A stretch of DNA of 64,000 nt from Terriglobales bacterium. GTDB taxonomy: Bacteria > Acidobacteriota > Terriglobia > Terriglobales > Acidobacteriaceae. The notes below the pieces were generated by a model. That model did no database searches. It was not told the DNA's origin and saw only the letters and a list, made by a program, of their open reading frames with translations. The DNA is taken from NCBI GenBank assembly GCA_035651655.1, contig DASRFG010000029.1, positions 62,001 to 126,000 on the forward strand. Direction: 5' to 3'. The position numbers and the translations under genes were made by a program. The first letter of the stretch is position 1. The number at the start of each line of letters is the position of its first letter. Positions 7,205 through 58,932 of this stretch are shown here, piece after piece.

Positions 7205-10200
7205 ATGACACACGACCAGCGCACGCCCGTCGCACTTTTCCGCCTGGTGGCACACTTCGCCTTCGTTCTGCTCCTTACTGCTACAGGCGCGGCCCAATCA
7301 ATCACTTCAGACAGCTACGCTGCCATGCGCTGGCGGCTGGTTGGCCCGTTTCGCGCCGGGCGAGTCACCGCCGTCGCCGGCATCGCGGGCCAACCCACTA
7401 TCTATTACATGGGGACGCCCGGAGGCGGAGTTTGGAAGACCAACGACGGCGGGCAAGTTTGGAAGCCCATCTTCGATGAGGAGCACGATTCGTCTGTAGG
7501 CGCGTTGGCCGTGGCCGCTTCTAATCCGAACATTATTTATGTAGGCACCGGCGAGCAGATACGCGGCAAGGGGATGTACAGGTCCGCCGACGCCGGTGTC
7601 ACCTGGACAAAGATCGGTCTTGGCGACATGCGCTACATCGACGCAATTGTGGTGGATCCGCATAATCCCGATATTGTCTTGGTCGCGGCAGGCGGCGACT
7701 ACCCTCCGAATCCAATGGGAGGTATCTTCAAAACCACCGACGCCGGCAAGACCTGGCGTAAAGTGCTGTCCAGGGAAGAAGCCACTGGAGGCATTGACCT
7801 CAGTTTCAATCCTGATAATCCCGCCGAGGTTTTTGCCGCGCTATGCCATCGCAATCCTGATTCCTTCGACCAACCTACTTCACCCAAACCGGATGGCTGG
7901 CTATATCGCTCAACCGACGAAGGTTCCTCCTGGGAACTTGCCCAAGGTAAGGGCTGGCCCTCGGGGAGCGTTGGGCGTATTGGAGTTGCGGTTGCTCCCG
8001 GCACTCAGGGCCGGCGCGTCTACGCCATCGTCAGCGAGGGTCTCCTGCGTTCCGATGACGCGGGAGCGAATTGGCAGCGGATTACGACGGATCCGCGGAT
8101 CGTCGGCAGCTCTTATTTCAGCCGGGTTTTTGTGGATCCGAAAAACGCCGATATTGTCTACCTGGCCCAGACATCACTCTACCGCTCTGTAGATGGCGGG
8201 AAAACTTTCGACGCCTTCGCCGGTGCTCCGAGCGGGGATGACTTCCACGTCCTGTGGATCAATCCTGATGATTCCCGGCAGATGATTGCGGGTGTAGATC
8301 AGGGGGCGATCGTCAGCGTGAATGGTGGCGAAAGTTGGAGTTCCTGGTACAACCAGGCCACTGGGCAGTTGTACAACGTCTCCGCCGACAACCAGTTTCC
8401 TTATCACCTTTACGCGGCACAGCAGGACAGCGGCACGGTCGCGGTTCCCAGCCGCGGCGACTACGGCGAGATCACCTATCGCGACTGGTTTTCGCCCGGC
8501 GGATTCGAAATCGGCTCCATCGTCGCCGACCCCGCTAATAGCAATGTTGTGTATGCCGCTGGCTGGTACAACACCGTAATCAGATTCGACAAAACCACTG
8601 GGCAAGTGGTGCACGTTTTCGTGCTGGGCAGCAAGGATCGCGCCTCGATGGTCATGCCCATGGCTTTCTCTCCGCAGGATCCGCGTATGCTCTATCTGGG
8701 CACGCAGTCTCTTTTAAAAACCACTGACAACGGGATGACCTGGCAGGCGATCAGCCCGGACCTGAGCCGCGGGGCCGCGAAGGAAACGGAAAAAGTCCAG
8801 AGCTTTACCGCATCGAAACATGCGATCTCCACGCTTTCGCCTTCCCCCCTGCAGCCGGGCCAAATCTGGGTCGCCACTGACGATGGACTGGTTCAGCTAA
8901 CCCAAAATGGTGGTAAGACCTGGAGCAACGTTTCACCGACCGGAGTAACGCCTCAGAGCACGTTCGTGATGATTGAGGCTTCGCATCATGACCGAGGCGC
9001 AGCTTATGCAGTGGTGAATGGTTTCCATGACTCCCGCCCATACGCATATCGCACCCACGACTACGGCCGAAGCTGGCAAAAGATTGTGGCCGGTTTGCCG
9101 GAGAGTTCAGTGGTACGCGTTGTGCGCGAGGATCCGGTCCGAAAAGGCCTGCTATACGCTGGCACAGAGGACGGAGTATCCGTTTCCTTTGATGACGGCG
9201 ACCACTGGCAGCCATTGCAACTCAATCTTCCTACGACGTCGGTGCGCGATCTGGTCGTACATAAGGATGACTTGGCCGCGGCGACATTTGGTCGCGGGCT
9301 GTGGATCCTGGATGATCTGACTCCGCTGCGGCAGATGGATCCAGGGGCGAAGCCTGACGTGCACTTCTTCCGGCCGGCCAATGCAATTCGCGTGCGCTGG
9401 GACGTGAACCAGGACACTCCCCTTCCCGCGGAAACCCCAGCCGGCCAGAATCCGCCCGACGGCGCCATCTTTGACTACTTTTTAAAAGCGCAGCCCTCAA
9501 GTCAGATCACGTTAGCCATCTACGATCAGCAGAAAACATTGATGCGCCAGTTCAGCAGCGCTCCTCAGCCTGCTCCGGTTGGCTTTCCTAACGTTCCCGA
9601 CTATTGGTTCGCGCCGCCGCCGACGCTAACAAAGAACGCCGGGCACAACCGTTTTGTTTGGGACCTGCGCTATGACGCCCCGCAGACGCTTCCCTATGGC
9701 TATTTTGGTGGCCGACTCGATTACGTTGAATACACGCTGGCTGAACATGCCATTCCCGGGCAGACCCCTCGAATCCAACCGCCCGGACCGCTGGTTGTTC
9801 CCGGTGAATACCAGATCGCGCTGACCGTGGACGGAAAAACGTATAACCAGCCTCTTATTGTGACCTTGGATCCGCGTGCGCACGCGGGTCAGGCTGATCT
9901 CGTCCACCAGTTGGAACTGGAGAAGGCAATCAGTTCGTGGATGTCCCTCAGCTATGCCGCTCACAACCAAGTTTCTCAATTGCAGTCTATGCTCACCGAT
10001 CGGCAGAAGGCCCTCAGCACCGATTCAACTAGCAGCGACGCTCTAACGGCAGTAAAGGCCCTCGATACTGACTTGGAAAAGCTGGAGGGCGGCACCTCTG
10101 CTGAGCCTGGCCTTGGGCTCGTGAACCGCGATCTAGCCAGGCTCCTAACCATGGCAGGCAGCGGCGATGCAGCACCCTCCAATGCAATCACAGCTGCCGC

Positions 10201-10354
10201 ACAACAGCAATGCGAAGCTTTAAGGAAGGATCTCACGCGTTGGAAAGAAATCAACGACAGCACCATCCCTGCTTTGAATAAGCTGCTGCGAAACCATAAC
10301 GTGAACGCGTTGCCGCAAACGAGTGATTTTCCAATCCCACAATGCACGCTATGA
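7205..10354 (+). CDS. Large exported BNR/VPS10 (sortilin)-type beta-propeller protein
   Basis: A 1049-residue protein starting 10 bases after the previous gene. A signal peptide ends near TGAAQ. The region to about residue 680 is a long propeller of BNR/Asp-box units (GGVWKTNDGGQVW, MYRSADAGVTW, KTTDAGKTWR, RTHDYGRSW), the repeat shared by sialidases and VPS10/sortilin proteins. Acidobacterial members are often labelled glycosyl hydrolase, but I see no sialidase catalytic set, so I avoid that name. A beta-sandwich region (~720-880) and a helical tail (~890-1040) follow. The function is unknown; exported binding or scaffold activity is likely. A histidine-kinase remnant follows immediately. 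Confidence 0.85.
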   Translation: MTHDQRTPVALFRLVAHFAFVLLLTATGAAQSITSDSYAAMRWRLVGPFRAGRVTAVAGIAGQPTIYYMGTPGGGVWKTNDGGQVWKPIFDEEHDSSVGALAVAASNPNIIYVGTGEQIRGKGMYRSADAGVTWTKIGLGDMRYIDAIVVDPHNPDIVLVAAGGDYPPNPMGGIFKTTDAGKTWRKVLSREEATGGIDLSFNPDNPAEVFAALCHRNPDSFDQPTSPKPDGWLYRSTDEGSSWELAQGKGWPSGSVGRIGVAVAPGTQGRRVYAIVSEGLLRSDDAGANWQRITTDPRIVGSSYFSRVFVDPKNADIVYLAQTSLYRSVDGGKTFDAFAGAPSGDDFHVLWINPDDSRQMIAGVDQGAIVSVNGGESWSSWYNQATGQLYNVSADNQFPYHLYAAQQDSGTVAVPSRGDYGEITYRDWFSPGGFEIGSIVADPANSNVVYAAGWYNTVIRFDKTTGQVVHVFVLGSKDRASMVMPMAFSPQDPRMLYLGTQSLLKTTDNGMTWQAISPDLSRGAAKETEKVQSFTASKHAISTLSPSPLQPGQIWVATDDGLVQLTQNGGKTWSNVSPTGVTPQSTFVMIEASHHDRGAAYAVVNGFHDSRPYAYRTHDYGRSWQKIVAGLPESSVVRVVREDPVRKGLLYAGTEDGVSVSFDDGDHWQPLQLNLPTTSVRDLVVHKDDLAAATFGRGLWILDDLTPLRQMDPGAKPDVHFFRPANAIRVRWDVNQDTPLPAETPAGQNPPDGAIFDYFLKAQPSSQITLAIYDQQKTLMRQFSSAPQPAPVGFPNVPDYWFAPPPTLTKNAGHNRFVWDLRYDAPQTLPYGYFGGRLDYVEYTLAEHAIPGQTPRIQPPGPLVVPGEYQIALTVDGKTYNQPLIVTLDPRAHAGQADLVHQLELEKAISSWMSLSYAAHNQVSQLQSMLTDRQKALSTDSTSSDALTAVKALDTDLEKLEGGTSAEPGLGLVNRDLARLLTMAGSGDAAPSNAITAAAQQQCEALRKDLTRWKEINDSTIPALNKLLRNHNVNALPQTSDFPIPQCTL

Positions 10355-12040: not shown

Positions 12041-13780
12041 ATGTCAGGCAACTACCCAATCCGACGCCGGAATGAGAAAGAGCGATGCGGCGCCGCTCGG
12101 GCTCTTAATCAGCTGGTTCTGATCACGCTGATTCTAATCACAAGTCTGGCATTCGCACGGTCGCCGAAGCTATCGAAGGACCTCCATAAAGTTTCCGGCA
12201 ATTCCTTTGTTGATGTAATTGTGCAGTTCAAGAAGAGGCCCACCAGCACTCACTTTAATAAAGTGAAAGCAAAGGGCGGCGCGCTGAAGCACGATTTTCG
12301 CAGAACCGTCAAAGGTGGCCTATTCAGAATACCTGCCAGTGCTCTCGACGACTTGGCCAACGACCCGGACGTGGCTTACGTTTCTCTTGACCGCCACTTG
12401 AAGGGCAAGGTAACCGAAACCGATTTCTACGAGGAAGCGGTAAACGCAGCGTACGCCGCCAACCTGGGATTGGATGGCAGTGGAATCGGTGTGGCAGTGA
12501 TTGACAGCGGCATCAGCCCAAGTTCCGATTTCAATGGTGCCGGGATTCAATCGCGCGTTGTTTACAGTGAAAATTTCGTCAATCTGGACCCTACCGATCA
12601 GTACGGCCATGGCACGCACGTGGCCGGAATTATCGCGGGCAACGGCAACAATTCAAGGGGTGCCGGCTTCACCATGACGTTCACAGGTATCGCACCCAAT
12701 GCGACTTTGATTAGCCTTAAGGTCCTCGATCAGCACGGTGGCGGTACAGACAGCGGTCTCATCGCAGCCATCCAGAAAGCGATCGAGCTCAAATCAACCT
12801 ACAACATCCGCGTTATCAATCTGTCGGTTGGACGAGCGGTTTATGAGAACTACACGGTTGATCCTCTGTGCCAGGCGGTGGAAGCAGCCTGGAACGCGGG
12901 CATCGTCGTGGTAGTAGCGGCCGGCAACGATGGCCGCAACAATGCAGCGGGCACAAATGGCTACGGAACCATCAACGCGCCTGGTAACGATCCTTATGTG
13001 ATCACCGTAGGTGCGATGAAATCAATGAACAGTGCGACCAGAGCCGATGACCTGATCGCCAGCTTCAGCTCGAAGGGCCCGACCCTCGTTGACCATATTG
13101 CCAAACCGGACATCGTGGCTCCTGGTAACAAAATCATTTCCGTCTTGGCGAGCACTGGGGTGACGCTGTTCACGTCATTCCCCTTGAACGCCCTTCCGAC
13201 CAACTACTACAGCGCGAGCGGGACAGTGCTTCCCTCCACCCACTACTTCATGCTCAGTGGAACCAGCATGGCGACACCGGTTGTAAGCGGTGCTGCTGCG
13301 CTGCTCTTGCAGCAAGAGCCAAGTCTTACGCCAGACCAGGTAAAAGCACGCCTGATGAAGACTTCGTATAAGGTCTTCCCCAGCTCCAGTTCAAGCACCG
13401 ATGCGGTCACCGGCATCACGTATACCAGCTATTACGACATGTTCACGGTGGGCGCCGGATATTTGGACATACAGGCGGCACTGGAAAGCACAGACGACGC
13501 TCCCGCAACTACGGGATCTGCGAAGTCGCCCTCCATTGGCTACGACGCGACTACCGGAATTGCGTATGTAATTTCCGATCCAACTACGATCTGGAGTAAT
13601 TCAGCGACATTCGATGCGTCAACCGTTTGGGGAAACTCCGTACTGTCGGGAACCGCGATTAACGGACAGTCGGTACTTTCGGGTAATAGCGTTCTGTGGG
13701 GAGATAGCGTGCTCTGGGGTGACAGTGTCCTTTGGGGTGATAGCGTCCTCTGGGGTGACAGTGTTCTTCTCGGCGACTAG
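12041..13780 (+). CDS. Subtilisin-like (S8) serine protease with C-terminal SVLWGD repeats
   Basis: About 579 residues from ATG 12041; a start at 11990 would add an unlikely Cys-rich stretch. A signal anchor spans residues ~26-40. An I9-type inhibitor propeptide (~45-120) contains DVIVQFKKRP and ends near VAYVSLDRH. The catalytic triad is intact: Asp155 in AVIDSGI, His190 in GHGTHVAG and Ser409 in SGTSMATP. The last ~60 residues form a low-complexity tail ending in five units of Ser-Val-Leu-Trp/Leu-Gly-Asp type. The protein is presumably exported, with the propeptide cleaved. The next gene is a paralogue, 36 bases downstream. A candidate operator sits upstream. Confidence 0.93.
   Translation: MSGNYPIRRRNEKERCGAARALNQLVLITLILITSLAFARSPKLSKDLHKVSGNSFVDVIVQFKKRPTSTHFNKVKAKGGALKHDFRRTVKGGLFRIPASALDDLANDPDVAYVSLDRHLKGKVTETDFYEEAVNAAYAANLGLDGSGIGVAVIDSGISPSSDFNGAGIQSRVVYSENFVNLDPTDQYGHGTHVAGIIAGNGNNSRGAGFTMTFTGIAPNATLISLKVLDQHGGGTDSGLIAAIQKAIELKSTYNIRVINLSVGRAVYENYTVDPLCQAVEAAWNAGIVVVVAAGNDGRNNAAGTNGYGTINAPGNDPYVITVGAMKSMNSATRADDLIASFSSKGPTLVDHIAKPDIVAPGNKIISVLASTGVTLFTSFPLNALPTNYYSASGTVLPSTHYFMLSGTSMATPVVSGAAALLLQQEPSLTPDQVKARLMKTSYKVFPSSSSSTDAVTGITYTSYYDMFTVGAGYLDIQAALESTDDAPATTGSAKSPSIGYDATTGIAYVISDPTTIWSNSATFDASTVWGNSVLSGTAINGQSVLSGNSVLWGDSVLWGDSVLWGDSVLWGDSVLLGD
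13688..13777 (+). repeat. Five 18-bp tandem units encoding SVLWGD
   Basis: Units begin at 13688, 13706, 13724, 13742 and 13760, each of six codons (Ser-Val-Leu-Trp-Gly-Asp; the last has Leu instead of Trp). Third-codon positions vary between units while the peptide is nearly constant, which points to selection on the protein sequence rather than recent slippage. A looser unit (SVLSGN) precedes them. Confidence 0.85.
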
Positions 13781-13816
13781 TTAGCTTCAGAGAATCGAAC
13801 AGGAGAAGTTGCTGCT

Positions 13817-15562
13817 GTGAAGAAAGTATTGATCATTTTCGCGCTGCTGCTGAGTTCGATTGTGGCCCTGGCGGGAACGCCAAAGCTTGCGCCCGAACTC
13901 CAAGGACGTACCGGGCTTCCCGCAAGCGTCATCGTGCAATTCCGTACTGCACCCACCCAACTCCATTTAAATTTGCTTCGTGGCAAGCATGCGGTGGGGA
14001 TCCAGTCCTTTTCAATCATTCACGCTGTCCGGGCGGTAATTCCGGCGGTGGCACTCCCCGGTTTGGCCAGAAACCCGGAAGTAACATATATCTCCGAAGA
14101 TCGAAAGCTGACCCGGGCCTCAACAACTACTGATTTTTACGATAACGCGCTCAATGCTCCCTATGCCTGGCAGTTGGGCTATGACGGAAGCGGCGTGGGC
14201 GTAGCTGTGATCGACAGCGGCATCAATGAAGGGACTTCGACCAGCACGAATAACGATTTAACCGTCGCTGGATCCGCAAAGAACTATCGAATTGTTTACA
14301 GCCAGAGTTTTCTTCCCCCCATATCTCCCAGCAAGTCGTCCTCTCCCATTGACCAGTACGGCCACGGGACCCACGTCGCGGGCATGATCGCGGGTAACGG
14401 AGCGTCTTCGCTCTGCCCGACATGTTTCATCACGTTCACAGGAATTGCTCCCAACGCCAACATCATCAACCTTCGCGTACTCGATGCGTATGGCAATGGC
14501 AATGACAGCTACGTCATATCGGCATTGCAGACGGCCATCAGTTTGAAATCGAAGTACAACATCCGGGTAATTAATCTTTCACTGGGCCGACCTGTTTACG
14601 AGAGTTATCAGCAGGACCCGCTATGCCAGGCAGTGGAACAAGCCTGGAAAGCGGGTATCGTTGTAGTGGTTGCTGCCGGGAATAACGGTCGCGATAACTC
14701 CGCTGCCACTAACGGATACGCGACCATCGCTGCACCGGCGAATGATCCTTACGTAATTACCGTGGGCGCGATGAAGCCCATGGGTACAGGCACCCGCAGT
14801 GACGACCTGATTGCGAGCTACAGCTCAAAAGGACCGACACTCTTCGATCACATCGTGAAGCCAGATGTGGTGGCCCCAGGCAATAGGATAATCAGCGCCG
14901 TTGCCGGGAACGGATACATCTACACAACGTATCCGATGAATCAGATCGCAACCAAGTACTACAATTCAAAAGGTACGAACTCCGTCTCAAGCGCCTATTA
15001 CCAAATGAGCGGCACGAGCATGGCAGCAGCCGCTGTGAGCGGCGCAGTGGCCGTCCTCCTCAAAGCGCAACCCAACTTAACGCCGGACCAAGTAAAGGCC
15101 CGGCTGATGAAAACGGCCTATAAGACCTTCTCACAGTTCAGCTCAGCTACGGATCCGAACACAGGCGCTACCTACAACAGCCAATACGACGCGTTCACCA
15201 TCGGTGCCGGTTACGTTGACTTGCAGGCAGCACTTTCCAGTACCGAGGTTGCGAATCTTCCGGCTAAGTCACCGATCGCCCATTACGACGCGACTTCGCA
15301 AAGTGTTTATTTCTTGCCCGATAGCTCAGCCGTATGGGGCACCTCAGCGATTTGGGGCACCTCGGCAGTATGGGGAACCGGTGTCTTCGTTGGCTCGCAG
15401 TCGTCGGGATGGGGGAGCCCTTCGGTTTGGGGCACCTCGGCGGTTTGGGGTACGGGAACCGACAGCGGATTCAGCGCCGTGTGGGGCACCAGCGCCGTAT
15501 GGGGCACGAGCAACAAAGACACCAGCGAAGGAGCGGCGCTGCTGGTAACCGGCGAGAACTAA
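13817..15562 (+). CDS. Subtilisin-like (S8) serine protease with C-terminal SAVWGT repeats
   Basis: A 581-residue paralogue of the preceding gene, starting at GTG 13817 with AGGAG further upstream. It has a signal peptide (1-19) and an I9-like propeptide (~25-100). The triad is intact: Asp133 in AVIDSGI, His183 in GHGTHVAG and Ser401 in SGTSMAAA. The catalytic core is close to the neighbour's, including the shared phrases NIRVINLS and DDLIAS. The tail is different: it repeats Ser-Ala-Val-Trp-Gly-Thr about seven times, interrupted by a Gly/Ser-rich insert. A tandem duplication followed by divergence of the tails is the simple reading. Expression with the first protease is likely because only 36 bases separate them. 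Confidence 0.93.
   Translation: MKKVLIIFALLLSSIVALAGTPKLAPELQGRTGLPASVIVQFRTAPTQLHLNLLRGKHAVGIQSFSIIHAVRAVIPAVALPGLARNPEVTYISEDRKLTRASTTTDFYDNALNAPYAWQLGYDGSGVGVAVIDSGINEGTSTSTNNDLTVAGSAKNYRIVYSQSFLPPISPSKSSSPIDQYGHGTHVAGMIAGNGASSLCPTCFITFTGIAPNANIINLRVLDAYGNGNDSYVISALQTAISLKSKYNIRVINLSLGRPVYESYQQDPLCQAVEQAWKAGIVVVVAAGNNGRDNSAATNGYATIAAPANDPYVITVGAMKPMGTGTRSDDLIASYSSKGPTLFDHIVKPDVVAPGNRIISAVAGNGYIYTTYPMNQIATKYYNSKGTNSVSSAYYQMSGTSMAAAAVSGAVAVLLKAQPNLTPDQVKARLMKTAYKTFSQFSSATDPNTGATYNSQYDAFTIGAGYVDLQAALSSTEVANLPAKSPIAHYDATSQSVYFLPDSSAVWGTSAIWGTSAVWGTGVFVGSQSSGWGSPSVWGTSAVWGTGTDSGFSAVWGTSAVWGTSNKDTSEGAALLVTGEN
15325..15516 (+). repeat. Interrupted tandem SAVWGT-coding repeat
   Basis: Units of Ser-Ala-Val/Ile-Trp-Gly-Thr (18 bases each) occur as three copies near 15325-15381, two near 15415-15455 and two near 15472-15510, split by Gly/Ser-rich stretches. 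The arrangement parallels the SVLWGD repeats of the neighbouring protease but uses different residues at positions 2, 3 and 6. Confidence 0.8.
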
Positions 15563-16995: not shown

Positions 16996-19848
16996 TTACG
17001 CGTGAGCGGCAGATTGTTTCGCGGTTTGTTTCGCCAAGAGGCGCCTGAGGCTTTCATCCAGCACACTTAGCGCGAAGGGCTTTTGCAGCACTACGATGTC
17101 TTCGCGCTCGGGGAGTTCCTGGTTGCTGTAGCCGGACATATATACCACCATCAGAGCCGGACGGAGTTGCAAGAGCCGTTTTGCCAGTTCAATTCCGCCC
17201 ATTTCCGGCATGATCACATCCGTCACCAACACGGCAATGGGATCTTGGTGATTCTCCGCGATGCGAAGCGCCTCCGGGCCGCCTGAAGCGGGCAAGACGG
17301 TATAGCCCTTCAACCCCAAGTACTCGGTGGCTGCAGCCCGCAAGCCGGCTTCGTCCTCCACCAGCAGAATCGTCTCGCCGCGTGCCTGCACTTTGCTGAC
17401 GACGGCCCCCGCTGAATCCTTGCTCAGGGCGGCAGCAATACGTGGCAGATACACCTCAAACGTCGTACCCGCGCCCAGCGTGCTTTCCACCAGGATGCAA
17501 CCCCCGCTCTGCTGCACGATTCCGTACACCGTCGCCAAGCCCAGACCGGTGCCTTTACCCGGTTCTTTGGTAGTGAAGAACGGCTCAAAGATGTGCGATT
17601 TAGTCTCCTGATCCATGCCGGTGCCGTTATCAGTAACACTAATCATCGCGTACTTGCCTGGCGTTAAAGGCGGGTGTGCCGCCGCGTAAGGTGAGTCCGC
17701 ATCTATGTTTGCAGTCTTGATCCGCAATCGCCCTCCCTTAGGCATGGCGTCGCGCGCATTGACTGCCAGATTCATGATGATCTGATCAAGGTAGGTAAGG
17801 TCCGCCTTGACCGTGCTCCGCTCACTTGCCGGCTCAATGCTCATCTGAATGTCTTCGCCCAGGAGGCGCGGCAACATCTTGGCCAAGTCCTGAACTACAA
17901 CGTTCAAGTCGAGAACCGTAGTGGCCGGCTGACGGCGCCGGCTAAATGCCAGAAGTTGCTTGGTGACAGCCGCCGCCCGTTCAGCAGCACCCAGAATCTG
18001 CTTGATATGTTTTTGTGCGGAGTCGGTCAAGGAGTTTTGGTCCAGCATGAGCTGCCCGTAACTGGAGATGATCATCAACAGATTATTGAAATCATGCGCC
18101 ACCCCCCCAGCGAGGCGGCCCACTGCCTCCATTTTCTGGGCTTGCCGGAATTGCTCCTCCAGCAAGCGGCGCTCGCTGATGTCGCGAATCGCGGCCGCTT
18201 GCAGAACTCCTTCATCGGTTTCCACGGCGCTGGTGCTGATATCAACCGGGAACTCAGTACCGTCTTTGCGGCGGGCGTAAAGATCTAATCCGTTGATCAC
18301 TGATCCTGAATTAGAAGCTTTGGGACTGCGACATATGGGATTGTTGGCTCGGAAGCGCTCCGGCACCAAGATCTCCGACTCTTGTCCCACCAGTTCCTCG
18401 GGAGTGTAACCAAATACTTTTGCAACCTGGTTATTTACCACCGCTATTTTGCCGTTGCCACCAACAATCACCATGGCGTCAGGGGTGGAGTCCAGCAAAA
18501 TCCGGACCTTGGCTTCCATCCGCTTGCGCGCGGTAACATCCTGGACGCTGCCTTCATAATGCAGAACTGATCCACTGGCGTCCGGGACTGCGCGCACTGA
18601 TTTTGAGACCCATATTTTGCTTCCATCCTTTCTATAAGCCTCGTATTCAAACCCCGCCACTTCGCCAATGGCGGTGAGTCGCATGATCATGGCTTCGCGT
18701 ACATCGCGGCGGACGTACTGCTGCTGTGCCGTGGTTGTGGCCATAAGCTCCTGGGGCGATGCAAATCCAAATATTTTTGCAAGCGCAGGATTGGCGGCCG
18801 TGTACACGCCACCGGGCAAGGCTTGAAACATGCCTTCTACCGCATTTTCGAAAATGGTGCGGTATTTTTCTTCGGCCACCATCAAGTCATGCTGGCGACC
18901 GAGATTTTCGTAAGCAACGGCAAACTGGCCGGAAACGGTGTTTGCCAGGTCTTCTTCTTCGGCATCGAATTGCTCAATTCCCAGCTTGTTGGCGGCGGCA
19001 AAGACGCCGTATAACTTCGACCCTGTCCCGCTGAGACGCGTGACTAACAACGATCGAATTGGTCCCGCGTCCGCTAAAGCCTGGAGCTTTCGAACAGCGC
19101 TTGAAGTGTGATCACAACAAACAGAGTTCTTATTTTCACCAACAAGTTCGAACAGCATGGATGCCACTTCCTGAGTGGTAATGCGAGGTTTGAACTCGGG
19201 AAGGAAACCGCTGGTGGCAAAGCAAGGGGTTCGGTCTTCCGCAGAAAGCGTCACCACCACCGCACACTTTGCGCCCAGAACATAGCGTGCTCCCTTGCAA
19301 AAGGTCTCTGCCAAGCGCGAGGGGTCAGTTTGGGAGCTCAGGTCTTTGCCTAGTTCGATCAGTGCAGACAAGCGGCCTCTGACAGCTTTCAATTCAGTAA
19401 ACCTGGCTGCCAAACGGCCTGAAATACGTTGAAGGCTAGCCCCGCTGGAAACTTCCTCATTCGATGAAACTGCGGTGACCGATTGTTTGAGCACCTCTTC
19501 CACGACCCCGTTCAGTTCCTGGGGATCGGCAGGTTTCGCGATTACGCGAAGAGCTCCGCAACTGCGTGCCAATGCCGCTGCCTCTGAGTGATGGTAAGTG
19601 GCACTGTAGAAAATTACCCGCGTATGCGCGAGTGCTGGGGATTGCCTCAACCGGCGCACAAACTCATAGCCATCCATGGTGGGCATCAGGATGTCGCTAA
19701 TCACCAAATCAGGGTTCAAGTGGGCGATTTTCGAGAGGGCCTCGGCGCCATCGGCGGCTTCGGTTACGGTGTGGCCGAAATGGCCCAGAACGGTGCGCAG
19801 GTAATCGCGGCTGGCAGGATCGTCTTCGACGACAAAAATGTTAGCCAT
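16996..19848 (-). CDS. Hybrid sensor histidine kinase (REC-GAF-PAS-PAS-HisKA-HATPase-REC)
   Basis: A 950-residue phosphorelay protein without a membrane segment. It opens with a receiver domain (1-125, Asp in VISDILMP). A GAF region (~155-310) follows, then two PAS domains (~325-570; the second contains LLDSTPDAMVIVGGNGKI), a HisKA dimerisation domain with the phospho-His in GGVAHDFNNLL, a HATPase domain with VTDNGTGM and GTGLGL, and a C-terminal receiver whose acceptor Asp lies in VLVTDVIMP. Receivers at both ends suggest it takes a phosphoryl group from a partner and passes it on. The start lies 3 bases beyond the stop of the double-receiver gene, so it is the last gene of a three-gene operon. 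Confidence 0.93.
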   Translation of the reverse strand: MANIFVVEDDPASRDYLRTVLGHFGHTVTEAADGAEALSKIAHLNPDLVISDILMPTMDGYEFVRRLRQSPALAHTRVIFYSATYHHSEAAALARSCGALRVIAKPADPQELNGVVEEVLKQSVTAVSSNEEVSSGASLQRISGRLAARFTELKAVRGRLSALIELGKDLSSQTDPSRLAETFCKGARYVLGAKCAVVVTLSAEDRTPCFATSGFLPEFKPRITTQEVASMLFELVGENKNSVCCDHTSSAVRKLQALADAGPIRSLLVTRLSGTGSKLYGVFAAANKLGIEQFDAEEEDLANTVSGQFAVAYENLGRQHDLMVAEEKYRTIFENAVEGMFQALPGGVYTAANPALAKIFGFASPQELMATTTAQQQYVRRDVREAMIMRLTAIGEVAGFEYEAYRKDGSKIWVSKSVRAVPDASGSVLHYEGSVQDVTARKRMEAKVRILLDSTPDAMVIVGGNGKIAVVNNQVAKVFGYTPEELVGQESEILVPERFRANNPICRSPKASNSGSVINGLDLYARRKDGTEFPVDISTSAVETDEGVLQAAAIRDISERRLLEEQFRQAQKMEAVGRLAGGVAHDFNNLLMIISSYGQLMLDQNSLTDSAQKHIKQILGAAERAAAVTKQLLAFSRRRQPATTVLDLNVVVQDLAKMLPRLLGEDIQMSIEPASERSTVKADLTYLDQIIMNLAVNARDAMPKGGRLRIKTANIDADSPYAAAHPPLTPGKYAMISVTDNGTGMDQETKSHIFEPFFTTKEPGKGTGLGLATVYGIVQQSGGCILVESTLGAGTTFEVYLPRIAAALSKDSAGAVVSKVQARGETILLVEDEAGLRAAATEYLGLKGYTVLPASGGPEALRIAENHQDPIAVLVTDVIMPEMGGIELAKRLLQLRPALMVVYMSGYSNQELPEREDIVVLQKPFALSVLDESLRRLLAKQTAKQSAAHA

Positions 19849-50643: not shown

Positions 50644-52083
50644 TTAGAGGTGCTGTGCGAGTGCCGGCTCTCCTGTCCAGCCTTCGCTTGAGATCTGCTG
50701 TTGCAACCAGCTTTCTAGTTCGCGCTGGCTCTCCTCTGGCATGTCCTGGAAGCGGAATCCGGCTTTGCCGTCACTGTCAATCCATGCCATTTCACCCTTG
50801 CTCTCGATGGGACGCGACATCCCAGGAAGAGTGAAGGTGACGATTACGTTTGACCGAAACTGCGCCAGATCGGACGACCGGACCGCGATGCCGCTGCTGC
50901 TGAGGTTCACGCTCATGGCATGTACCTCCTTGCCGGCAGAACGAATCGCCACCGGGAATTCCGAGACCACCCGGAAATAGCGTTGCTGTTCATAACTCAG
51001 TTGACCGAGCGAATTCTGCGGATCGGATTCTGCCTGCTCCTTATACTGCTTCAGCTTGCGACTCAATGTCCGGCGGGAAATGCCGAGACGCTCTGCTGCC
51101 TTGCCGCGGTGTCCTCCAGTGCGGGTCAGAGTTTCCAGGATGACCCGCTTTTCCACGTCGTCCAAGTCGCTGGCCCGAGAACCCGCGCCCACTCCGCGCC
51201 GGGAACTCGAATTTGGGTTCTCAAGCGCGAGATCGGCAGCAGAGATTTCAGGCGCGCCATGCTTTGCATTCATCACCGCCTTGAAAATCACATTTTTCAA
51301 TTCGCGCACGTTTCCGGGCCAGGAATAGCTTTGCAAGGCATCGAGGGCGTCGGCCGTAAAGCGCGCTTCCGGCGAATGCTGCCGTAACGCATATTCCGCG
51401 ATTGCGGCCACATCATCCGGACGTTCTCGCAGCGGCGGTACACGCAATTGAAATTGGCTGAGACGGTAATAAAGATCGCGGCGGAACCTTCCTGCTTTGA
51501 CGGCCATCTCCATGTCCTGGTTCGTCGCCGCGACAACGCGAACGTCGATGTCAATTTTCTTTTGGCCACCCAGGCGGTAATAGGGAATGCCATCCAGCAC
51601 TCTCAGGAGTTTCACTTGGACCTTGGGATCAAGTTCACCGATTTCGTCTAGAAATAATGTGCCCTGATCGGCTAGCTCAAATAGGCCCGGCTTGGCGCCC
51701 TCAGCGCCGCTGAAAGCGCCCTTCTCATAACCAAACAGTTCACTTTCCACCAGGTGTTCTGGCAATGCCGCGCAGTTCACGTCTACAAAAGTGCGCAAGC
51801 TGCGTCGTGAATAGTGATGAATTGCCCGCGCAATCAGCTCTTTACCGCTCCCGGTTTCTCCCACGATCAACACGCTTGCGTTGTGCTGGGCCACCCTCTG
51901 GATGAGCAACATCACATTGCGGAGCGCCTGGCTGCGCACTATTGCCGTGCTGCCATCCGGGAACTGAACTCCTTCGATCTTCAGGTTGGTTGAAGGGTTC
52001 TCTGCCAAAGGTCTGTCGGGCTGATTGGGTGTCGTCATACGGGACTGATCATTTGTCGCATGAGCAGCCCTGAAATTCGACAT
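50644..52083 (-). CDS. Sigma-54-dependent activator with Fis helix-turn-helix and C-terminal PilZ domain
   Basis: About 479 residues from ATG 52083; the start is uncertain (TTG 52101 and ATG 52038 are possible). There is no receiver or GAF domain at the N-terminus, only ~45 residues. The AAA+ domain spans ~45-275: Walker A GETGSGKE (75-82), the sigma-54 contact loop GAFSGA (122-127; usually GAFTGA) and Walker B TLFLDEIGE. The Fis-type DNA-binding helix is at ~325-348 (GKAAERLGISRRTLSRK). Residues ~367-462 form a PilZ domain with NLSSSGI (the D/NxSxxG motif), while the RxxxR motif is weak (QRYFR). The domain order suggests regulation by cyclic di-GMP after the DNA-binding part. It is divergent from a cyclic di-GMP enzyme gene. 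Confidence 0.88.
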   Translation of the reverse strand: MSNFRAAHATNDQSRMTTPNQPDRPLAENPSTNLKIEGVQFPDGSTAIVRSQALRNVMLLIQRVAQHNASVLIVGETGSGKELIARAIHHYSRRSLRTFVDVNCAALPEHLVESELFGYEKGAFSGAEGAKPGLFELADQGTLFLDEIGELDPKVQVKLLRVLDGIPYYRLGGQKKIDIDVRVVAATNQDMEMAVKAGRFRRDLYYRLSQFQLRVPPLRERPDDVAAIAEYALRQHSPEARFTADALDALQSYSWPGNVRELKNVIFKAVMNAKHGAPEISAADLALENPNSSSRRGVGAGSRASDLDDVEKRVILETLTRTGGHRGKAAERLGISRRTLSRKLKQYKEQAESDPQNSLGQLSYEQQRYFRVVSEFPVAIRSAGKEVHAMSVNLSSSGIAVRSSDLAQFRSNVIVTFTLPGMSRPIESKGEMAWIDSDGKAGFRFQDMPEESQRELESWLQQQISSEGWTGEPALAQHL

Positions 52084-52169
52084 TACCGCAGTAATTCTCA
52101 AGTTCCTAAACAGGGAGTTTGAGAGCGGGCCAATTGGGCCTTAAGGGATGACTTCAGTAACTTCGGATG

Positions 52170-52190
52170 GTTTTAGAAATGCTGTAAAAC
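52170..52190. promoter_or_regulatory. Dyad in the spacer of the divergent pair
   Basis: GTTTTA and TAAAAC form a 6-base dyad around 9 bases, nested inside GTAAC (52157) and GTTAC (52194). It is AT-rich compared with its surroundings and lies between the activator gene and the HD-GYP gene. It could be a binding site for the Fis-type activator itself. Confidence 0.35.
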
Positions 52191-52276
52191 TGAGTTACGC
52201 GCCCACTAAAAGATGAGCCGAACCCCCTCGTGCGCGCCGGCTTTCCCCCCACTTTGACGCGGGCGTAGCTCGTTTG

Positions 52277-52311
52277 CTGCGTGAGAACGTTTGCCGCGCA
52301 CTTTCACGCAG
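52277..52311 (+). promoter_or_regulatory. 8-bp inverted repeat just upstream of the HD-GYP/GGDEF gene
   Basis: CTGCGTGA (52277-52284) and TCACGCAG (52304-52311) are perfect arms around a 19-base loop, ending directly before the GTGGAG ribosome site of the gene starting at 52324. It can act as an mRNA hairpin or as an operator. Confidence 0.45.
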
Positions 52312-52323
52312 AGTGGAGCCAGA

Positions 52324-54765
52324 ATGTCCAATAGGGCCAAAGTGTTTATCGGCATGGTGGTCCTCGCCGGGACCGCGATACTGGCCGTTGGATCGCTTGG
52401 CTTTCATTCCGCTGACCCCGCCCGATTCCTCGGCTATCTGGCAGTCGCCCTTTTCGCTTCCATCCTGAAAGTCTCGCTGCCTGGAATCACCGGCACCATG
52501 TCAGTGAACTTTCTTTTTATCCTTATTGGAATTGTTGAACTAACGCTGCCGGAAACTTTGCTCCTGGGATGTCTCGCCACCGTTGTTCAGTATTTTTGGA
52601 ATGCGAAAGGTCAAACCAAGTGGGTGCAGGTCACGTTCAACCTGTGCAACATGGCAGTGGCCATCGCCGTTTCCTACTGGGTTTACCACACCATCGTCCG
52701 GCACTGGTTCAGCCACTACCTGTTAATGGTGCTGATGTTGTCGGCTGCTGTGTACTTCGTCGCCAATACAGTTCCCGTCGCCGCCGTCATTGCGCTCACC
52801 GAAGAGAAATCGCTGCGCAAGATTTGGTCGGAGTGCTACTTCTGGTCTTTTCCGTATTACCTGGTGGGCGCCACCATCGCCGCCATGGTCAGCTGGGTTA
52901 ATAGCGCGATTGGCTGGCAAACTTCTTTGCTGGTCTTGCCGCCGGTCTATCTCATTTACCGTTCATACCATCTCTATCTGGGAAAATTAGAGAACGAAAA
53001 GCAGCACGTGGAGCAGATCGCTTCATTACACCTGCGCACCATTGAGGCGCTTGCGCTCGCCATCGAAGCCAAGGACCACACCACCCACGATCACTTGCAG
53101 CGGGTGCGAATTTACGCCACTGAGTTGGCGAAAAAACTAGATCTTACGGAAGACGAAAATCAAGCAGTGCATGCGGCGGCATTACTGCACGATATTGGCA
53201 AGCTCGCTGTGCCTGAGCACATCATCTCTAAGCCGGGAAAGCTGACACCCGAAGAATTCGAGAAGATGAAGATCCATCCCCTGGTAGGCGCCGAGATACT
53301 GGAGCGCGTGCAGTTCCCCTACCCGGTCGGGCCGATTGTGGTTGCACATCACGAGAAATGGGACGGCAGCGGATATCCTAATGGACTTAAGGGCGAGGAA
53401 ATCCCAATCGGAGCACGCATCCTTGCCGCCGTGGATTGCCTGGACGCGCTGGCCTCCGACCGCCAATATCGCAGGGCACTCCCGCTCGAGGACGCGCTGG
53501 CGCGGGTGGTCGCAGACTCCGGCACCGCCTTCGATCCCCAGGTGGTGGATGTCTTAAAGAAGCACTACGTCGAATGGGAGAAGCTGGCCCAGGCGCGCTC
53601 CAAACCGTACGAGCGTACGAAACTCTCCACCAGAGTTCGTGTGGAACGCGGCAAGGCTCCAGCCACCGGGTTTGAAGAAACCAATCCCACAAAGTCCGGA
53701 CCCATGCAGAGGCGGGAGAGCAGTTTTCTCTCCTCTATCGCCGCCGCCCGGCAGGAAGCGCAAACCTTGTTCGAACTCAGCCAGGACTTGGGCAATTCAC
53801 TGAGTCTCGATGACACCCTGTCGGTGTTGGCGGCCCGACTGAAGCGACTTGTCCCTTACGATTCCATCGCAATTTATGTTCGGCGGGAGGACAAGCTGGT
53901 CCCTGAGCATGTTAGCGGCGATAACTTCCGACTCTTTGCGTCCTTAAAGATTCCACTCGGTGAAGGTCTATCGGGATGGGTGGCAGAGAACAAGAAGGCC
54001 ATCATCAACGGGAATCCCTCAGTCGAGCCGGGTTATTTGAACGATCCCTCAAAGTTCAGCACCTTGCGCTCTGCTCTCGCTGTACCGCTTGAAGGGCTGA
54101 GCGGCGTCATCGGAGTGCTCACGCTTTACAACGCCGAGAAGGATGCTTTTACTTCCGATCACTTGCGCATCCTCCTGGCCATAAGTTCCAAAGTCGCGCT
54201 TTCCATTGAGAACGCGATGAAGTACCAGCAGGCAGAAAGTTCAGCCACCATTGACTACCTGACTGAACTGCCCAACGCCCGCTCACTCTTTCTGCATCTG
54301 GATCGCGAACTGGCGCGCTGCAAGCGGACCAATTCAGCGGTCAGCGTGATCGTCTGCGACCTGGATGGGTTCAAGCAGATCAATGACCGCTTTGGCCACC
54401 TGGAAGGAAACCGCGTGCTGCGGGTTTTTTCCCAGAGGCTAAAAGACGCCTGTCGCGAATATGACTACGTGGCGCGCATGGGCGGAGACGAGTTCGTGAT
54501 TGTGGCTCCTGGCCTGAAACCGGACGCGGCACAGCAGAAAGTGGACCAGGCAATTGAAATTGCAACTCTCGCCGGACGCGAAGTTTGCGGCGAACAGTTG
54601 ATCTCGCTGAGCGCCGGCATGGCTGTGTATCCGGACGACGGCGAAGACGCTGAGGAGTTGTTGGCCGAAGCCGACCGCCGCATGTACATCATGAAGCAGC
54701 AGCATCATCAGCAGAGAAGCGCTGCCGCCGCTGCGGGTGCAAGCAACACTTCACGTCCTGTGAAT
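52324..54765 (+). CDS. Membrane HD-GYP / GAF / GGDEF cyclic di-GMP enzyme
   Basis: An 813-814 residue protein (start ATG 52324 with GGAG upstream; the stop is the TGA at 54766-54768). Six to seven membrane segments (~8-215) form an N-terminal sensor. The HD-GYP phosphodiesterase (~235-420) has the HD pair at 289-290 and HHEKWDGSGYP at 342-352, all conserved residues present. A GAF domain (~475-625) follows, then a GGDEF cyclase (~640-800) with intact GGDEF at 720-724 and an RxxD inhibitory site (REYD, 711-714). It may therefore both make and break cyclic di-GMP, the balance being set by the GAF and membrane parts. It is divergent from the PilZ activator. Confidence 0.93.
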
Positions 54766-54783
54766 TGAAGGCCAAAAAAAAAC

Positions 54784-55647
54784 ATGGTGCAGCGGCTTAT
54801 CAAACATATCGCAACCATCCTGCTGACCGCCGTTCTAGGCGGCATGCTGGGAGCCACCTTAGTGCGCTTTTCCCCTGGGGCAGGCGTTGATGAGCGTGAG
54901 TTCGACCCTCGTCTAAGTGCGGAGAGCGTTGCCGCCCTGCGCCAGCAGCTTCGGACCGAAAATAATTTGCCGAATTTCTATCGCCATTACTTCGCAGGTC
55001 TCCTGCACGGCGACTTGGGCTTTTCACGAACTCTCAACCGTCCGGCCGCCCAGTTGATCGCAACCCGCTTCCCGGTCACGCTGCGCCAAGTCTCAATCGG
55101 GTTGCTGGTGGGATGGACGATTGCGATGCTGCTCGTGGTCCCAGCGGTCATGCTGCACTCGTGGCAATTTAATCTGCTTGCCGGTGGCCTCACCTCCACA
55201 TTGCTTGCGGTCCCCGCAGCGGTGCTGGCGCTCATGTTCGTCTTTCTTCGGGCGCCTCCCAGTCTGGCGCTTGCGCTGGTGGTTGTTCCCAAGATTTTCG
55301 GCTATTCGCGCAATGTGATGTTGCGCAGTTATGAGCTTCCTCACGTACTGGCGGCCCGCTGCAAAGGACTGGGCGAAGTGCGCGTGTTTCTGTGGCATGT
55401 GCTGCCGGTTAGTGCTCCGCAGATGCTGGCTCTGGTGGCGATATCTGTGACTCTGGCTATCGGCGCAGCGATTCCGGTAGAAGCCCTGTGCGATCTGCCG
55501 GGCATCGGCCAGCTTGCCTGGCAAGCCGCCTTGGGCCGTGACCTGGTGCTGCTGGTCAATCTCACGACGCTGGTCACTTTGATTACGGTCACCATAAATT
55601 CGGCTTCTGACCTGCTCGGCCGCTCAATGTGGCGAGGCGCAGCGTGA
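54784..55647 (+). CDS. Dipeptide/oligopeptide-type ABC permease (DppB-like)
   Basis: A 287-residue inner-membrane protein with about six segments. It starts after a run of nine A. The N-terminal region resembles DppB (VRFSPGAGVDEREFDPRLS and GLLHGDLGFS), and the coupling loop is ELPHVLAARCKGLGEVRVFLWHVLP. The end overlaps the second permease start as GTGA. It is the first gene of a four-gene importer operon that follows the cyclic di-GMP enzyme by 15 bases, so the five may be cotranscribed. Confidence 0.88.
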   Translation: MVQRLIKHIATILLTAVLGGMLGATLVRFSPGAGVDEREFDPRLSAESVAALRQQLRTENNLPNFYRHYFAGLLHGDLGFSRTLNRPAAQLIATRFPVTLRQVSIGLLVGWTIAMLLVVPAVMLHSWQFNLLAGGLTSTLLAVPAAVLALMFVFLRAPPSLALALVVVPKIFGYSRNVMLRSYELPHVLAARCKGLGEVRVFLWHVLPVSAPQMLALVAISVTLAIGAAIPVEALCDLPGIGQLAWQAALGRDLVLLVNLTTLVTLITVTINSASDLLGRSMWRGAA

Positions 55648-56447
55648 ACACCGGGCGCTGGATTGCAATTTGCCTGCTGGGCCTGGTACTGACTGCTTCC
55701 CTTTTGGCAAACTTCATTGCTCCTGCCTCCTACGCCGAGCAATTTCGCGATCTGCCTGGAGCGTCACCTTCGGCAAGGCATTGGCTCGGAACTGATGACC
55801 TCGGCCGTGACCGGTTCTCGCGCCTTCTGTATGGAACCAGGATTTCTCTTCTGTTGGCGCCCGCGGCGGCGCTGGTTTCGACGCTGCTTGCCGGCGTGAT
55901 TGGCGGCCTGGCCGGCTATCTGGGCGGAGGTTTTGAGGGTACGGCGATGTGGGTGACGGATTTGTTCCTATCGCTGCCCTGGTTGTTCCTGTTGGTCGCG
56001 GTGCGGGCGATGTTACCGCTGAATGTGTCGCCCCTTGCGTCAGTAATAATTACCTTCGCACTGCTGGGCATTCTCGGATGGGCCGCCGCGGCGCGCGTCG
56101 TTTGCGCGGGCAGCCGTACCTTGCGCAACTCGGATTTTGTCCTTCAGGCCCGCGCCTCGGGTGTCAGCGGTCCACGGGTATTTGCAGTCCACATTTTCCC
56201 CAACCTCGCGCCCGTGCTGTTGGCGCAATTCTGGATTTCGATTCCCGTATTCATTCTCACCGAAGCCAACCTCGGAGTCCTGGGACTGGGTGTTGCCGAG
56301 CCCCTGCCCTCCTGGGGAAGTCTGCTGCGGGAGATTGAAGGTTACTCCGCCGCTTCCCAGCCTTGGTTGTTTGTACCGCTGCTTCTTCTGGTCGCGGTAG
56401 TCACCTGTTTTCAGGTCGCACTTTCGAGTAAGGAACTGCCCTCATGA
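55644..56447 (+). CDS. Dipeptide/oligopeptide-type ABC permease (DppC-like)
   Basis: 267 residues from GTG 55644, preceded by GAGGCG; a GTG at 55629 is possible but gives a longer overlap. DppC marks are HWLGTDDLGRDRFSRLLYGTRISL near the N-terminus and the loop FVLQARASGVSGPRVFAVHIFPN that contacts the ATPase. GVAEPLPSWGSLL at the end is also typical. The stop overlaps the binding-protein start by four bases (ATGA). Confidence 0.9.
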   Translation: MNTGRWIAICLLGLVLTASLLANFIAPASYAEQFRDLPGASPSARHWLGTDDLGRDRFSRLLYGTRISLLLAPAAALVSTLLAGVIGGLAGYLGGGFEGTAMWVTDLFLSLPWLFLLVAVRAMLPLNVSPLASVIITFALLGILGWAAAARVVCAGSRTLRNSDFVLQARASGVSGPRVFAVHIFPNLAPVLLAQFWISIPVFILTEANLGVLGLGVAEPLPSWGSLLREIEGYSAASQPWLFVPLLLLVAVVTCFQVALSSKELPS

Positions 56448-58081
56448 AGAAAAGTATTCTGCACGCTCTAGTGCTCTGCGGTTTGCTGTTTGCAAGCTGC
56501 ACCGCGTGGTCACAATACGGAGGCGAGCTCAGATTCTGCGTGCGCGCCGAACCCAAAACTTTTGATCCGCTCCTGGTGGATGACGACCCATCAGACACCG
56601 TGCGCTATCTCACCGCCGGTGTGCTGGTCCGCACCAACCGGGTGACCCAACAACTTGAACCGCAGCTGGCGCTCTCCTGGAAGGTCTCCGAGAACGGACA
56701 GCGCATCACCTTCAAGTTACGCAGAGATTTGTACTTCTCGGACGGTTCTCCTTTTTCCGCGACCGATGTGGCCTACACCGTGCGCCGGCTCATGGATCCC
56801 AACCTGCACTCTTCTACCGCCGATCCGTTCCGCTCAGGACCTGGGGATGTTGATGTCCGCATCTTGGCGTCGGATCGTGTCGCCATCAGATTCCCTGCAC
56901 CGGTGGCGGGATTGGATCGCTTGTTCGATCAAGTGCCCATTATGTCTTCCACCTCGCCGAAGAAGGAGATGGCAGTACTGGGGCCTTTCAACATCGCCGA
57001 TTACAAACCGGGCGAGTACGTCCTTCTCAAGCGCAATCCAAATTATTGGAAGCATGACGCTGCCGGACGACGCTTGCCGTACCTGGATTCTGTCCGAATT
57101 GAGGTTGAACAAAACCGCGACCTGGAGATGCTCCACTTTGTGCGCGGCGAAGTTGACTTGATCAACTCGCTCGATCCCGAATATTTCTCCAGGCTTTCCT
57201 CTCAAGCCGAGTCCACCGCGCATGATGCAGGAGTCTCGCTGGATCCCGAAATGATGTGGCTCAACCAGGTTCCTACGGCTCCGATTCCTGCTTACAAGAA
57301 GGCCTGGTTCGCATCCACCATGTTTCGGCAGGCCCTTTCTAAGGCAATCAATCGCGAAGATATGGCGCGCATCGTCTTTCGTGGCCATGCTCACCCGGCT
57401 TTTGGCCCGATCTCGCCCGCAAATACGTTCTGGTTCAATTCCAAGCTGAAAGCCCAGGCTTACGATCCCCAGAGCGCGATTCGGGAGCTTGCACAAGACG
57501 GCTTCAAATTGCAGGACGGCACATTAAAAGATCGCGGCGGCAACGCGGTGGAATTTTCTGTGATCACCAATGCCGGGAACAAATATCGTGCGGCAATGGC
57601 AGCCATGATGCAGCAAGACCTCGCCAAGATCGGCATTCGGCTGAACATCGTCACTTTGGATTTCCCGTCGCTTATGGAGCGCATCTCGCGGACCTTCGAC
57701 TACGAGGCCTGTTTGCTGGGACTGGTCAACACCGAACTCGATCCCAACGTCCAGATGAACGTATGGCTGAGCTCCGCCGCTGACCATCAATGGAACCCCC
57801 AGCAGAAGAACCCGGCGACGGCATGGGAGTCTGAAATTGACCGGCTTATACGCGCCCAGGCTTCTACTTCTGACGTCAGAAAGCGCAAGCAATATTTTGA
57901 CCGCGTACAGGAGATTGTTCGCGAACAAAACCCGTTTATCTATTTGTTGAATAAAGACGCACTCTCTGGCATCGCCAGTACGGTTCGGAACGCACAGCCC
58001 AGCGTGCTTCGCCCGCAGACTTACTGGAACATTGATGAGCTCTACCTGCAATCTCACGCTGACGTGGCGAGGAGCCGATAG
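56444..58081 (+). CDS. Extracellular solute-binding protein, family 5 (DppA/OppA-like)
   Basis: 545 residues. An N-terminal signal (residues 1-24) is followed by GGELRFCVRAEPKTFDPL, the usual start of family 5. The peptide-binding segments ITFKLRRDLYFSDGSPFSATDVAYTVRR, GPFNIADYKPGEYVLLKRNPNYW and FRQALSKAINREDMARIV are present. FASC near the signal end may be a lipobox, but its -3 residue is unusual. The substrate could be peptides, nickel or other solutes. It starts inside the permease stop and ends one base into the ATPase gene (TAGTG). Confidence 0.9.
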   Translation: MKKSILHALVLCGLLFASCTAWSQYGGELRFCVRAEPKTFDPLLVDDDPSDTVRYLTAGVLVRTNRVTQQLEPQLALSWKVSENGQRITFKLRRDLYFSDGSPFSATDVAYTVRRLMDPNLHSSTADPFRSGPGDVDVRILASDRVAIRFPAPVAGLDRLFDQVPIMSSTSPKKEMAVLGPFNIADYKPGEYVLLKRNPNYWKHDAAGRRLPYLDSVRIEVEQNRDLEMLHFVRGEVDLINSLDPEYFSRLSSQAESTAHDAGVSLDPEMMWLNQVPTAPIPAYKKAWFASTMFRQALSKAINREDMARIVFRGHAHPAFGPISPANTFWFNSKLKAQAYDPQSAIRELAQDGFKLQDGTLKDRGGNAVEFSVITNAGNKYRAAMAAMMQQDLAKIGIRLNIVTLDFPSLMERISRTFDYEACLLGLVNTELDPNVQMNVWLSSAADHQWNPQQKNPATAWESEIDRLIRAQASTSDVRKRKQYFDRVQEIVREQNPFIYLLNKDALSGIASTVRNAQPSVLRPQTYWNIDELYLQSHADVARSR

Positions 58082-58932
58082 TGACCGAGCCTCTTCTTTC
58101 AGTTTCGTTGGCTGCTCGTTATCGCGAAGGCAGTAGCGTGCTAAACGGATTGTCGCTAGAGCTCAATTCCGGAGAAATTCTAGGACTGGTGGGGCAGAGC
58201 GGCTGTGGGAAGAGCACCCTTGCGTTGGCGCTTCTTCGGCTGCTTCATCTGAAGGCCGGCAGGGCGACAGGCAAGGTTCAATTCAGCGGTCGTGAGCTGA
58301 TGGACTTGGATGAGCGGGAAATGCGGGAGCTGCGCGGCAAAGAAATCGCCCTGGTGTTGCAGAGCCCCATCGCCTCGCTCAACCCTGCCCTTCGCATCGG
58401 CACACAGTTGGCCGAAACCTGGAAGGCGCATCGCAGCGGTTCGGCGGACGAATGCCGGCGTGAGGTGCTAAAGGCGCTGGCTAGCGTAATGCTGCCGGCA
58501 GACGATGACTTCTTGAGTCGTCGTCCATCCGAGCTTAGTGTGGGCCAGGCACAGAGGGTACTCATTGCCATGGCCGTAATGCATCACCCATTGCTGCTCA
58601 TCGCTGATGAACCCACCAGCGCGCTGGACATCATTACGCAATCGGAAATCCTGGCACTCTTCCAGCGGCTCAGCAGCGACCTCGGCATGGCCATTCTCTA
58701 TATCAGCCACGATCTTTTGTCAGTGGCTACCATCGCCAACCGCATTGCGGTGATGCATCAGGGAAGCATCGTAGAGTGCAGCACGCCGCGAGAAATCTTT
58801 TCCTCTCCCCAGCACGCTTACACCCGCGCCTTGGTATCGTCACTGCCGGTTCCGCCATCCTGGGCAGCAGCGGTGAACCCCGAGGCCAGCGCCTCGCCAC
58901 GCGTACGAGCGCAGGCCGTTGGCCGTCGCTGA
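58081..58932 (+). CDS. Dipeptide/oligopeptide ABC transporter ATPase (DppD-like), single copy
   Basis: 283 residues from GTG 58081. Walker A is GQSGCGKST, the Q-loop reads VLQSPIASLNP, Walker B is LLIADEPTSALD and the H-loop is ISHDLLSVA. The signature is ELSVGQAQR, with Val where most have Gly (LSGGQ). Dpp/Opp systems normally have two different ATPases; here a second (DppF) gene does not follow. The protein may act as a homodimer or use a partner encoded elsewhere. It is the last gene of the importer operon, followed by a sigma-54 promoter. Confidence 0.88.
   Translation: MTEPLLSVSLAARYREGSSVLNGLSLELNSGEILGLVGQSGCGKSTLALALLRLLHLKAGRATGKVQFSGRELMDLDEREMRELRGKEIALVLQSPIASLNPALRIGTQLAETWKAHRSGSADECRREVLKALASVMLPADDDFLSRRPSELSVGQAQRVLIAMAVMHHPLLLIADEPTSALDIITQSEILALFQRLSSDLGMAILYISHDLLSVATIANRIAVMHQGSIVECSTPREIFSSPQHAYTRALVSSLPVPPSWAAAVNPEASASPRVRAQAVGRR

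Follow-up and report, generated by a model that had tools for sequence, protein, structure and literature searches.

The S8 subtilases (PF00082), such as Tk-SP (PDB 3afg), are secreted as precursors in which a propeptide accompanies an Asp/His/Ser catalytic domain, and some Gram-negative subtilases carry a C-terminal extension that is removed on activation. The two proteases described here share this precursor architecture but add a C-terminal tail of hexapeptide units. The tail resembles the transferase hexapeptide repeats (PF00132) in its period of six and in having G/A/E/D after the core residue and S/T/A/V four residues on. However, Trp replaces Leu/Ile/Val in nearly every tail unit, and the tail is attached to a protease and not to an acyltransferase; the likeness here is one of sequence consensus. 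MASE9 (PF20972) proteins combine a polytopic domain with HD-GYP, GAF, GGDEF or HisKA output, as do sensors encoded beside the tailed proteases, but these neighbors are often standalone proteins of about 250 amino acids directly behind the protease, and several fall under the Pfam cut-off. The Lap system, in which a periplasmic protease is under c-di-GMP control, is similar in general terms because it joins a protease and c-di-GMP signaling in one module, but its protease and sensor families are unrelated to those found here. A search of openly accessible literature returned nothing on the hexad motif, on MASE7-9 or on acidobacterial S8 tails, and the name MASE9 was used by no paper in the literature searched. 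The proteases belong to a large Acidobacteriota family that is apparently undescribed.

The window, which is the whole 64,000-nucleotide stretch of DNA that was analyzed, contains two S8 subtilase genes in tandem on the forward strand, both identified as open reading frames with PF00082 matches. Subtilase 1 (12041–13780) consists of a signal peptide, an I9-like propeptide, the catalytic domain and the hexapeptide tail; its start is the ATG at 12041, and in the list of open reading frames it is extended upstream to a TTG at 11990. Subtilase 2 (13817–15562; 581 amino acids) starts with a GTG at 13817, 36 bp past the stop codon of subtilase 1. The scores against PF00082 were 190.2 bits (E 6.5e-56) and 175.2 bits (E 2.3e-51), respectively, with a cut-off of 21.8, while the I9 propeptide match in subtilase 1 was weak and sub-threshold. 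By inspection, the N terminus of both proteins is signal-peptide-like, and both are predicted to be secreted. In an alignment of 68 family members, the triad D113, H163 and S381 was invariant, and the D-S-G, G-H-G-T-H and G-T-S-M positions were invariant or nearly so. The AlphaFold2 model of the subtilase 2 body matched subtilisins, with Tk-SP as the best match. With catalytic residues intact and 55% identity between the two proteins, the original prediction of tandem subtilisin-like paralogues was confirmed. A type VII secretion mycosin assignment (TIGR03921) was rejected, as the scores of 145.9 and 142.9 bits are below the NCBIfam cut-off of 278.75. Upstream of the proteases, positions 7205–10354 of the forward strand encode a secreted-looking protein of 1049 amino acids with Sortilin/BNR propeller repeats (PF15902).

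The tails had been described as SVLWGD and SAVWGT units of 18 bp each. Such units are present, but neither tail is a simple uniform array because tail 1 contains degenerate hexads and tail 2 contains interrupting segments. Tail 1 (13583–13777, forward strand), delimited from the sequence, Tandem Repeats Finder and the unit codons, includes the degenerate hexads TTIWSN, STVWGN, SVLSGT and SVLSGN, which precede four SVLWGD units and a terminal SVLLGD. In tail 2 (15323–15559, forward strand), delimited from the sequence, Tandem Repeats Finder and family tail alignments, segments of the GVFVGSQ, SGWG and TDSGF types interrupt the SAVWGT-type units, and LLVTGEN forms the end; the alignments show the interruptions to be conserved among paralogues. 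Tandem Repeats Finder reported period 18 at 13681–13758, 15325–15379 and 15472–15511. Over 79 family tails, the spacing between successive Trp residues was exactly 6 in 64% of cases compared to 5.4% ± 1.0% in shuffled tails, so the hexad pattern is not due to chance. The spacing was a multiple of 6 in 85% of cases, which indicates that Trp-less hexads keep the phase. These hexads mostly retain G or A as the next residue, S as the third and V/A as the fourth, and the family unit can be written as [S/N/T/D]-[V/A]-[V/L/I]-W-G-[T/S/N/D]. Most family tails end in G-[DE]-[NKQ], which may serve as a capping strand or as a sorting signal. One S8 tail (L219, G053:C176:1500-7000), encoded beside a MASE9-like gene, repeats an enlarged unit of about 14 residues, NTIVWGSRGGGLGG.

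Trp-Gly-tailed S8 proteases, whose collection the original prediction had proposed, were found five times in the genome of origin and in relatives across Acidobacteriota. The genome has five S8 proteases in all, each with a hexad tail (SVLWGD and SAVWGT for the window pair, and SVVWGT-type, SAVWGT and NAMWGS for the others), and a tail-unit search of this genome matched nothing beyond them. About 80 relatives were identified on Acidobacteriota contigs, with tails wherever the C terminus was present and with units that include NIVWGD, TALWGK, QSIWAS and SSVWST. Culturable carriers of the tail include Granulicella aggregans (L039/L073). Of 297 Acidobacteriota genomes that were sampled, 67 gave a match to the tail profile. 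When 30 of these tail loci were fetched, 27 had S8 catalytic motifs, two more had S8 sequence before the tail, and the remaining one was a fragment cut by the contig end; tails in the phylum sample essentially always sit on S8 proteases. A tblastn search of plasmids returned ordinary S8 cores only, at <60% identity.

A stacked beta-helix had been proposed for the tail, and the evidence on this point is divided. In the register of PF00132, whose consensus is [LIV]-[GAED]-x-x-[STAV]-x, the tail unit corresponds to W-[GAED]-x-x-[STAV]-x; the position after Trp is G/A/E/D in 92% of cases and the fourth after Trp is S/T/A/V in 80%. An S8 relative (L221, G226:C2:130000-134000) whose natural (GVLVGD)n tail lacks Trp passes Pfam Hexapep with 37.1 bits against a cut-off of 27. 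When Trp was replaced by Ile in the tails of both window proteins and three relatives, Hexapep was the best family for these tails (E 2.5e-4 to 5.7e-9), the cut-off was exceeded by one of the five, and none of the five reversed controls matched. The beta-helix proposal thus has indirect support from sequence, in that the tail fits the left-handed beta-helix consensus if Trp takes the aliphatic place; in a standard left-handed beta-helix core, three Trp per coil would be crowded. On the other side, the native window proteins gave no match to PF00132 at E <= 1, the unmodified Trp tails of relatives gave none at E <= 10, and the tail profile had no match among solved structures. In the suggested check for a beta-solenoid, AlphaFold2 returned the tail with low confidence (pLDDT about 31–45) and no solenoid, both for the full protein and for a 13-unit tail, the most regular one (L023), modeled with 29 aligned tails. 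In the low-confidence model of the L023 tail, the only strands were one at the end of the tail and those of a hairpin before the array.

The agreement between units was 77% within a protein compared to 51% between proteins, and synonymous codons of neighboring units were identical in 42% of cases with 36% expected. Nine proteins have perfectly uniform units; in L023, 13 identical SAIWGS units are encoded by 13 different DNA sequences that use both TCN and AGY serines. In one clade with catalytic regions that are 83–91% identical, each array consists of DALWGS, EALWGS, NALWGS or NVLWGS throughout, and codon agreement within these arrays was 0.27–0.41 (random level) compared to 0.49–0.54 between orthologous cores. 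A comparison of units one by one in this clade could not match them between species (best uncorrected p 0.01, seven registers). In four near relatives (L011, L014, L019 and L016), a residue that differs between the species (D, E or N) is carried by all 7–8 units; codons are at the random level, so that the residue differs in a coordinated way without detectable homogenization of the DNA. Selection at the protein level is the simplest reading of the uniform units. Random variation in length and frame among close strains, which the original prediction had named as counting against it, was mostly absent in a comparison made across species with one genome per species: many relatives whose cores share 84% identity or more had tails of equal or nearly equal length (96/96, 101/101, 91/91, 104/104 and 116/115 amino acids), with exceptions such as 109/129. 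Because the phase is kept through Trp-less units, residues are uniform despite near-random codons and length is mostly stable, the tail is considered to be under selection, and the earlier proposal of a selected structure is well supported.

Clustering of the genes flanking tailed proteases identified a polytopic MASE9-related domain as a recurrent neighbor, either alone (about 250 amino acids) or fused to HD-GYP, GAF and GGDEF or to HisKA-HATPase. A sensor lies no more than 600 bp from the protease in 31 of 76 loci, and 16 of these pairs are codirectional with gaps of <60 bp or overlapping. Within the genome of origin, a standalone sensor gene (L155) starts within the protease gene on contig C1, and the protease gene on C9 and a sensor-HD-GYP-GAF-GGDEF gene (L157) are arranged divergently. 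Against PF20972 (cut-off 24.3), the C9 neighbor scored 27.2 and the sensor of L026 scored 30.4, several others scored below the cut-off and the C1 neighbor did not match; all sensor domains, including those under the cut-off, join one alignment.

Among 150 sensor sites listed in the phylum draw, 28 were within 3 kb of a tail compared to 0.34 expected, and these 28 are spread over 19 genomes and many families. In contrast, no S8 of any kind was found at 40 sampled non-adjacent sensor sites in a six-frame search of up to about 5.5 kb on each side, and the same search without overlap filtering recovered the sensor at all 40 sites. In the 19 genomes, which were chosen for adjacency, a sensor was present beside 23 of 44 tailed S8 proteases compared to 2 of 78 first classed as tailless, and both of these two carry hexad tails on inspection. 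As the Fisher tests on the phylum draw and on these 19 genomes ignore relatedness, the claim of adjacency is based on the distance count of the phylum draw and the 40 control sites: only hexad-tailed S8 proteases, and no other S8 detected, adjoin MASE9-like sensors. The linkage is not universal, as 21 of the 44 tailed proteases, among them both window proteases, have no adjoining sensor gene, and 16 of 67 tailed genomes gave no sensor match. Covariation of tail and sensor was weak (partial Mantel r 0.15, p 0.02).

The window itself contains the third of the genome's sensor genes, 37 kb from the proteases (52291–54768, forward strand; open reading frame with a MASE9-like profile match of E 1.9e-87 at G000:C29:114318-115022). 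Its HD-GYP, GAF and GGDEF-like regions were assigned by similarity to L157 and L028, both of which had been scanned. It is preceded by a gene for an NtrC-type sigma-54 regulator (50644–52101, reverse strand) and followed by genes for a Dpp/Opp-type peptide ABC transporter (54784–58932, forward strand; two permeases, a binding protein and an ATPase), all of them open reading frames named from sequence. The regulator family occurs near tailed proteases in 11 loci and the peptide transporter families in 9 to 17 loci, and the companions in this cluster (50644–58932) are the same as those that flank tailed proteases in other Acidobacteriota. Elsewhere in the window, a gene downstream of an oxidoreductase gene encodes a large hybrid sensor kinase that has receiver-like regions at each end (16996–19848, reverse strand); the neighborhood clustering placed its signaling family in 13 loci.

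In summary, the two genes encode predicted secreted subtilases with a C-terminal module of hexapeptide repeats that selection, judged from sequence, keeps uniform; the probable fold of this module is a short beta-solenoid or a similar beta stack. The original prediction had suggested that the tail may anchor or display the enzyme; the gene neighborhood suggests, more specifically, that it partners a membrane sensor, and this linkage is the most specific functional clue. Because hexad-tailed S8 proteases and no other S8 detected adjoin MASE9-like sensors, we tentatively favor a role for the tail, as a beta-solenoid-like module, in docking the protease to the envelope next to the sensor; proteolysis or its products might then be reported to the signaling network of the cell through the sensor. 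Adjacency of the genes does not prove contact between the proteins.

The main rival is that the tail serves as a general surface or matrix anchor or as an adhesion module, through binding of a Trp-bearing beta stack to polysaccharide or to the outer membrane, and that the sensor linkage reflects only co-regulation of exoprotease operons. This proposal is credible if somewhat doubtful. The regular display of Trp and the beta-helix-like consensus fit it, as do the many tailed proteases without an adjoining sensor and the frequency of peptide importers and sigma-54 regulators as further neighbors. Anchoring alone, however, leaves unexplained why no untailed S8 protease was seen beside the sensor and why standalone sensor domains of about 250 amino acids are found directly behind the protease.

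A third possibility is that the tail is a maturation or secretion extension, either an intramolecular chaperone or an aid to outer-membrane translocation, that is removed on activation. The C-terminal position is consistent with this, as is the fact that 53 of 79 members end in G-[DE], but the uniform side chains and the lineage-specific changes of whole arrays exceed the needs of a disposable extension and the link to the sensor is not accounted for, which makes such a role rather unlikely. It also seems unlikely that the MASE9-like receptor has the array itself as its ligand, either as an intact repetitive docking surface or as cut hexapeptides, with protease, signal array and c-di-GMP/kinase receptor forming a self-contained cassette that has spread through Acidobacteriota.

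The units could also be a repeated peptide signal, with proteolysis freeing identical hexapeptides for the adjacent polytopic sensor or for a peptide importer. Uniform residues despite scrambled codons, the joint change of all units between near relatives, and the adjacent multi-pass sensor and Dpp transporter would all be expected of such a signal. We nevertheless give this idea little credence, since many arrays are non-uniform (mean within-protein identity 77%), the phase is kept by Trp-less hexads, no processing site is present between units and tail and sensor covary only weakly. Neutral replication slippage producing a functionless tandem repeat would yield the period-18 DNA arrays but is scarcely credible and was rejected, as units keep their residues while differing at most synonymous sites, tail length is mostly stable among near relatives and the tail is kept across the phylum.

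Acidobacteriota are widespread soil bacteria of which few secreted enzymes have been studied. A phylum-wide protease family with a strongly selected repeat and a recurrent sensor offers an entry to extracellular proteolysis that is possibly tied to c-di-GMP signaling, and MASE9 would gain a candidate partner. If the tail does form a beta-solenoid with a Trp core, the known hexapeptide fold would be extended. The tailed protease and its sensor neighborhood suggest an undescribed link between digestion outside the cell and signaling within it.
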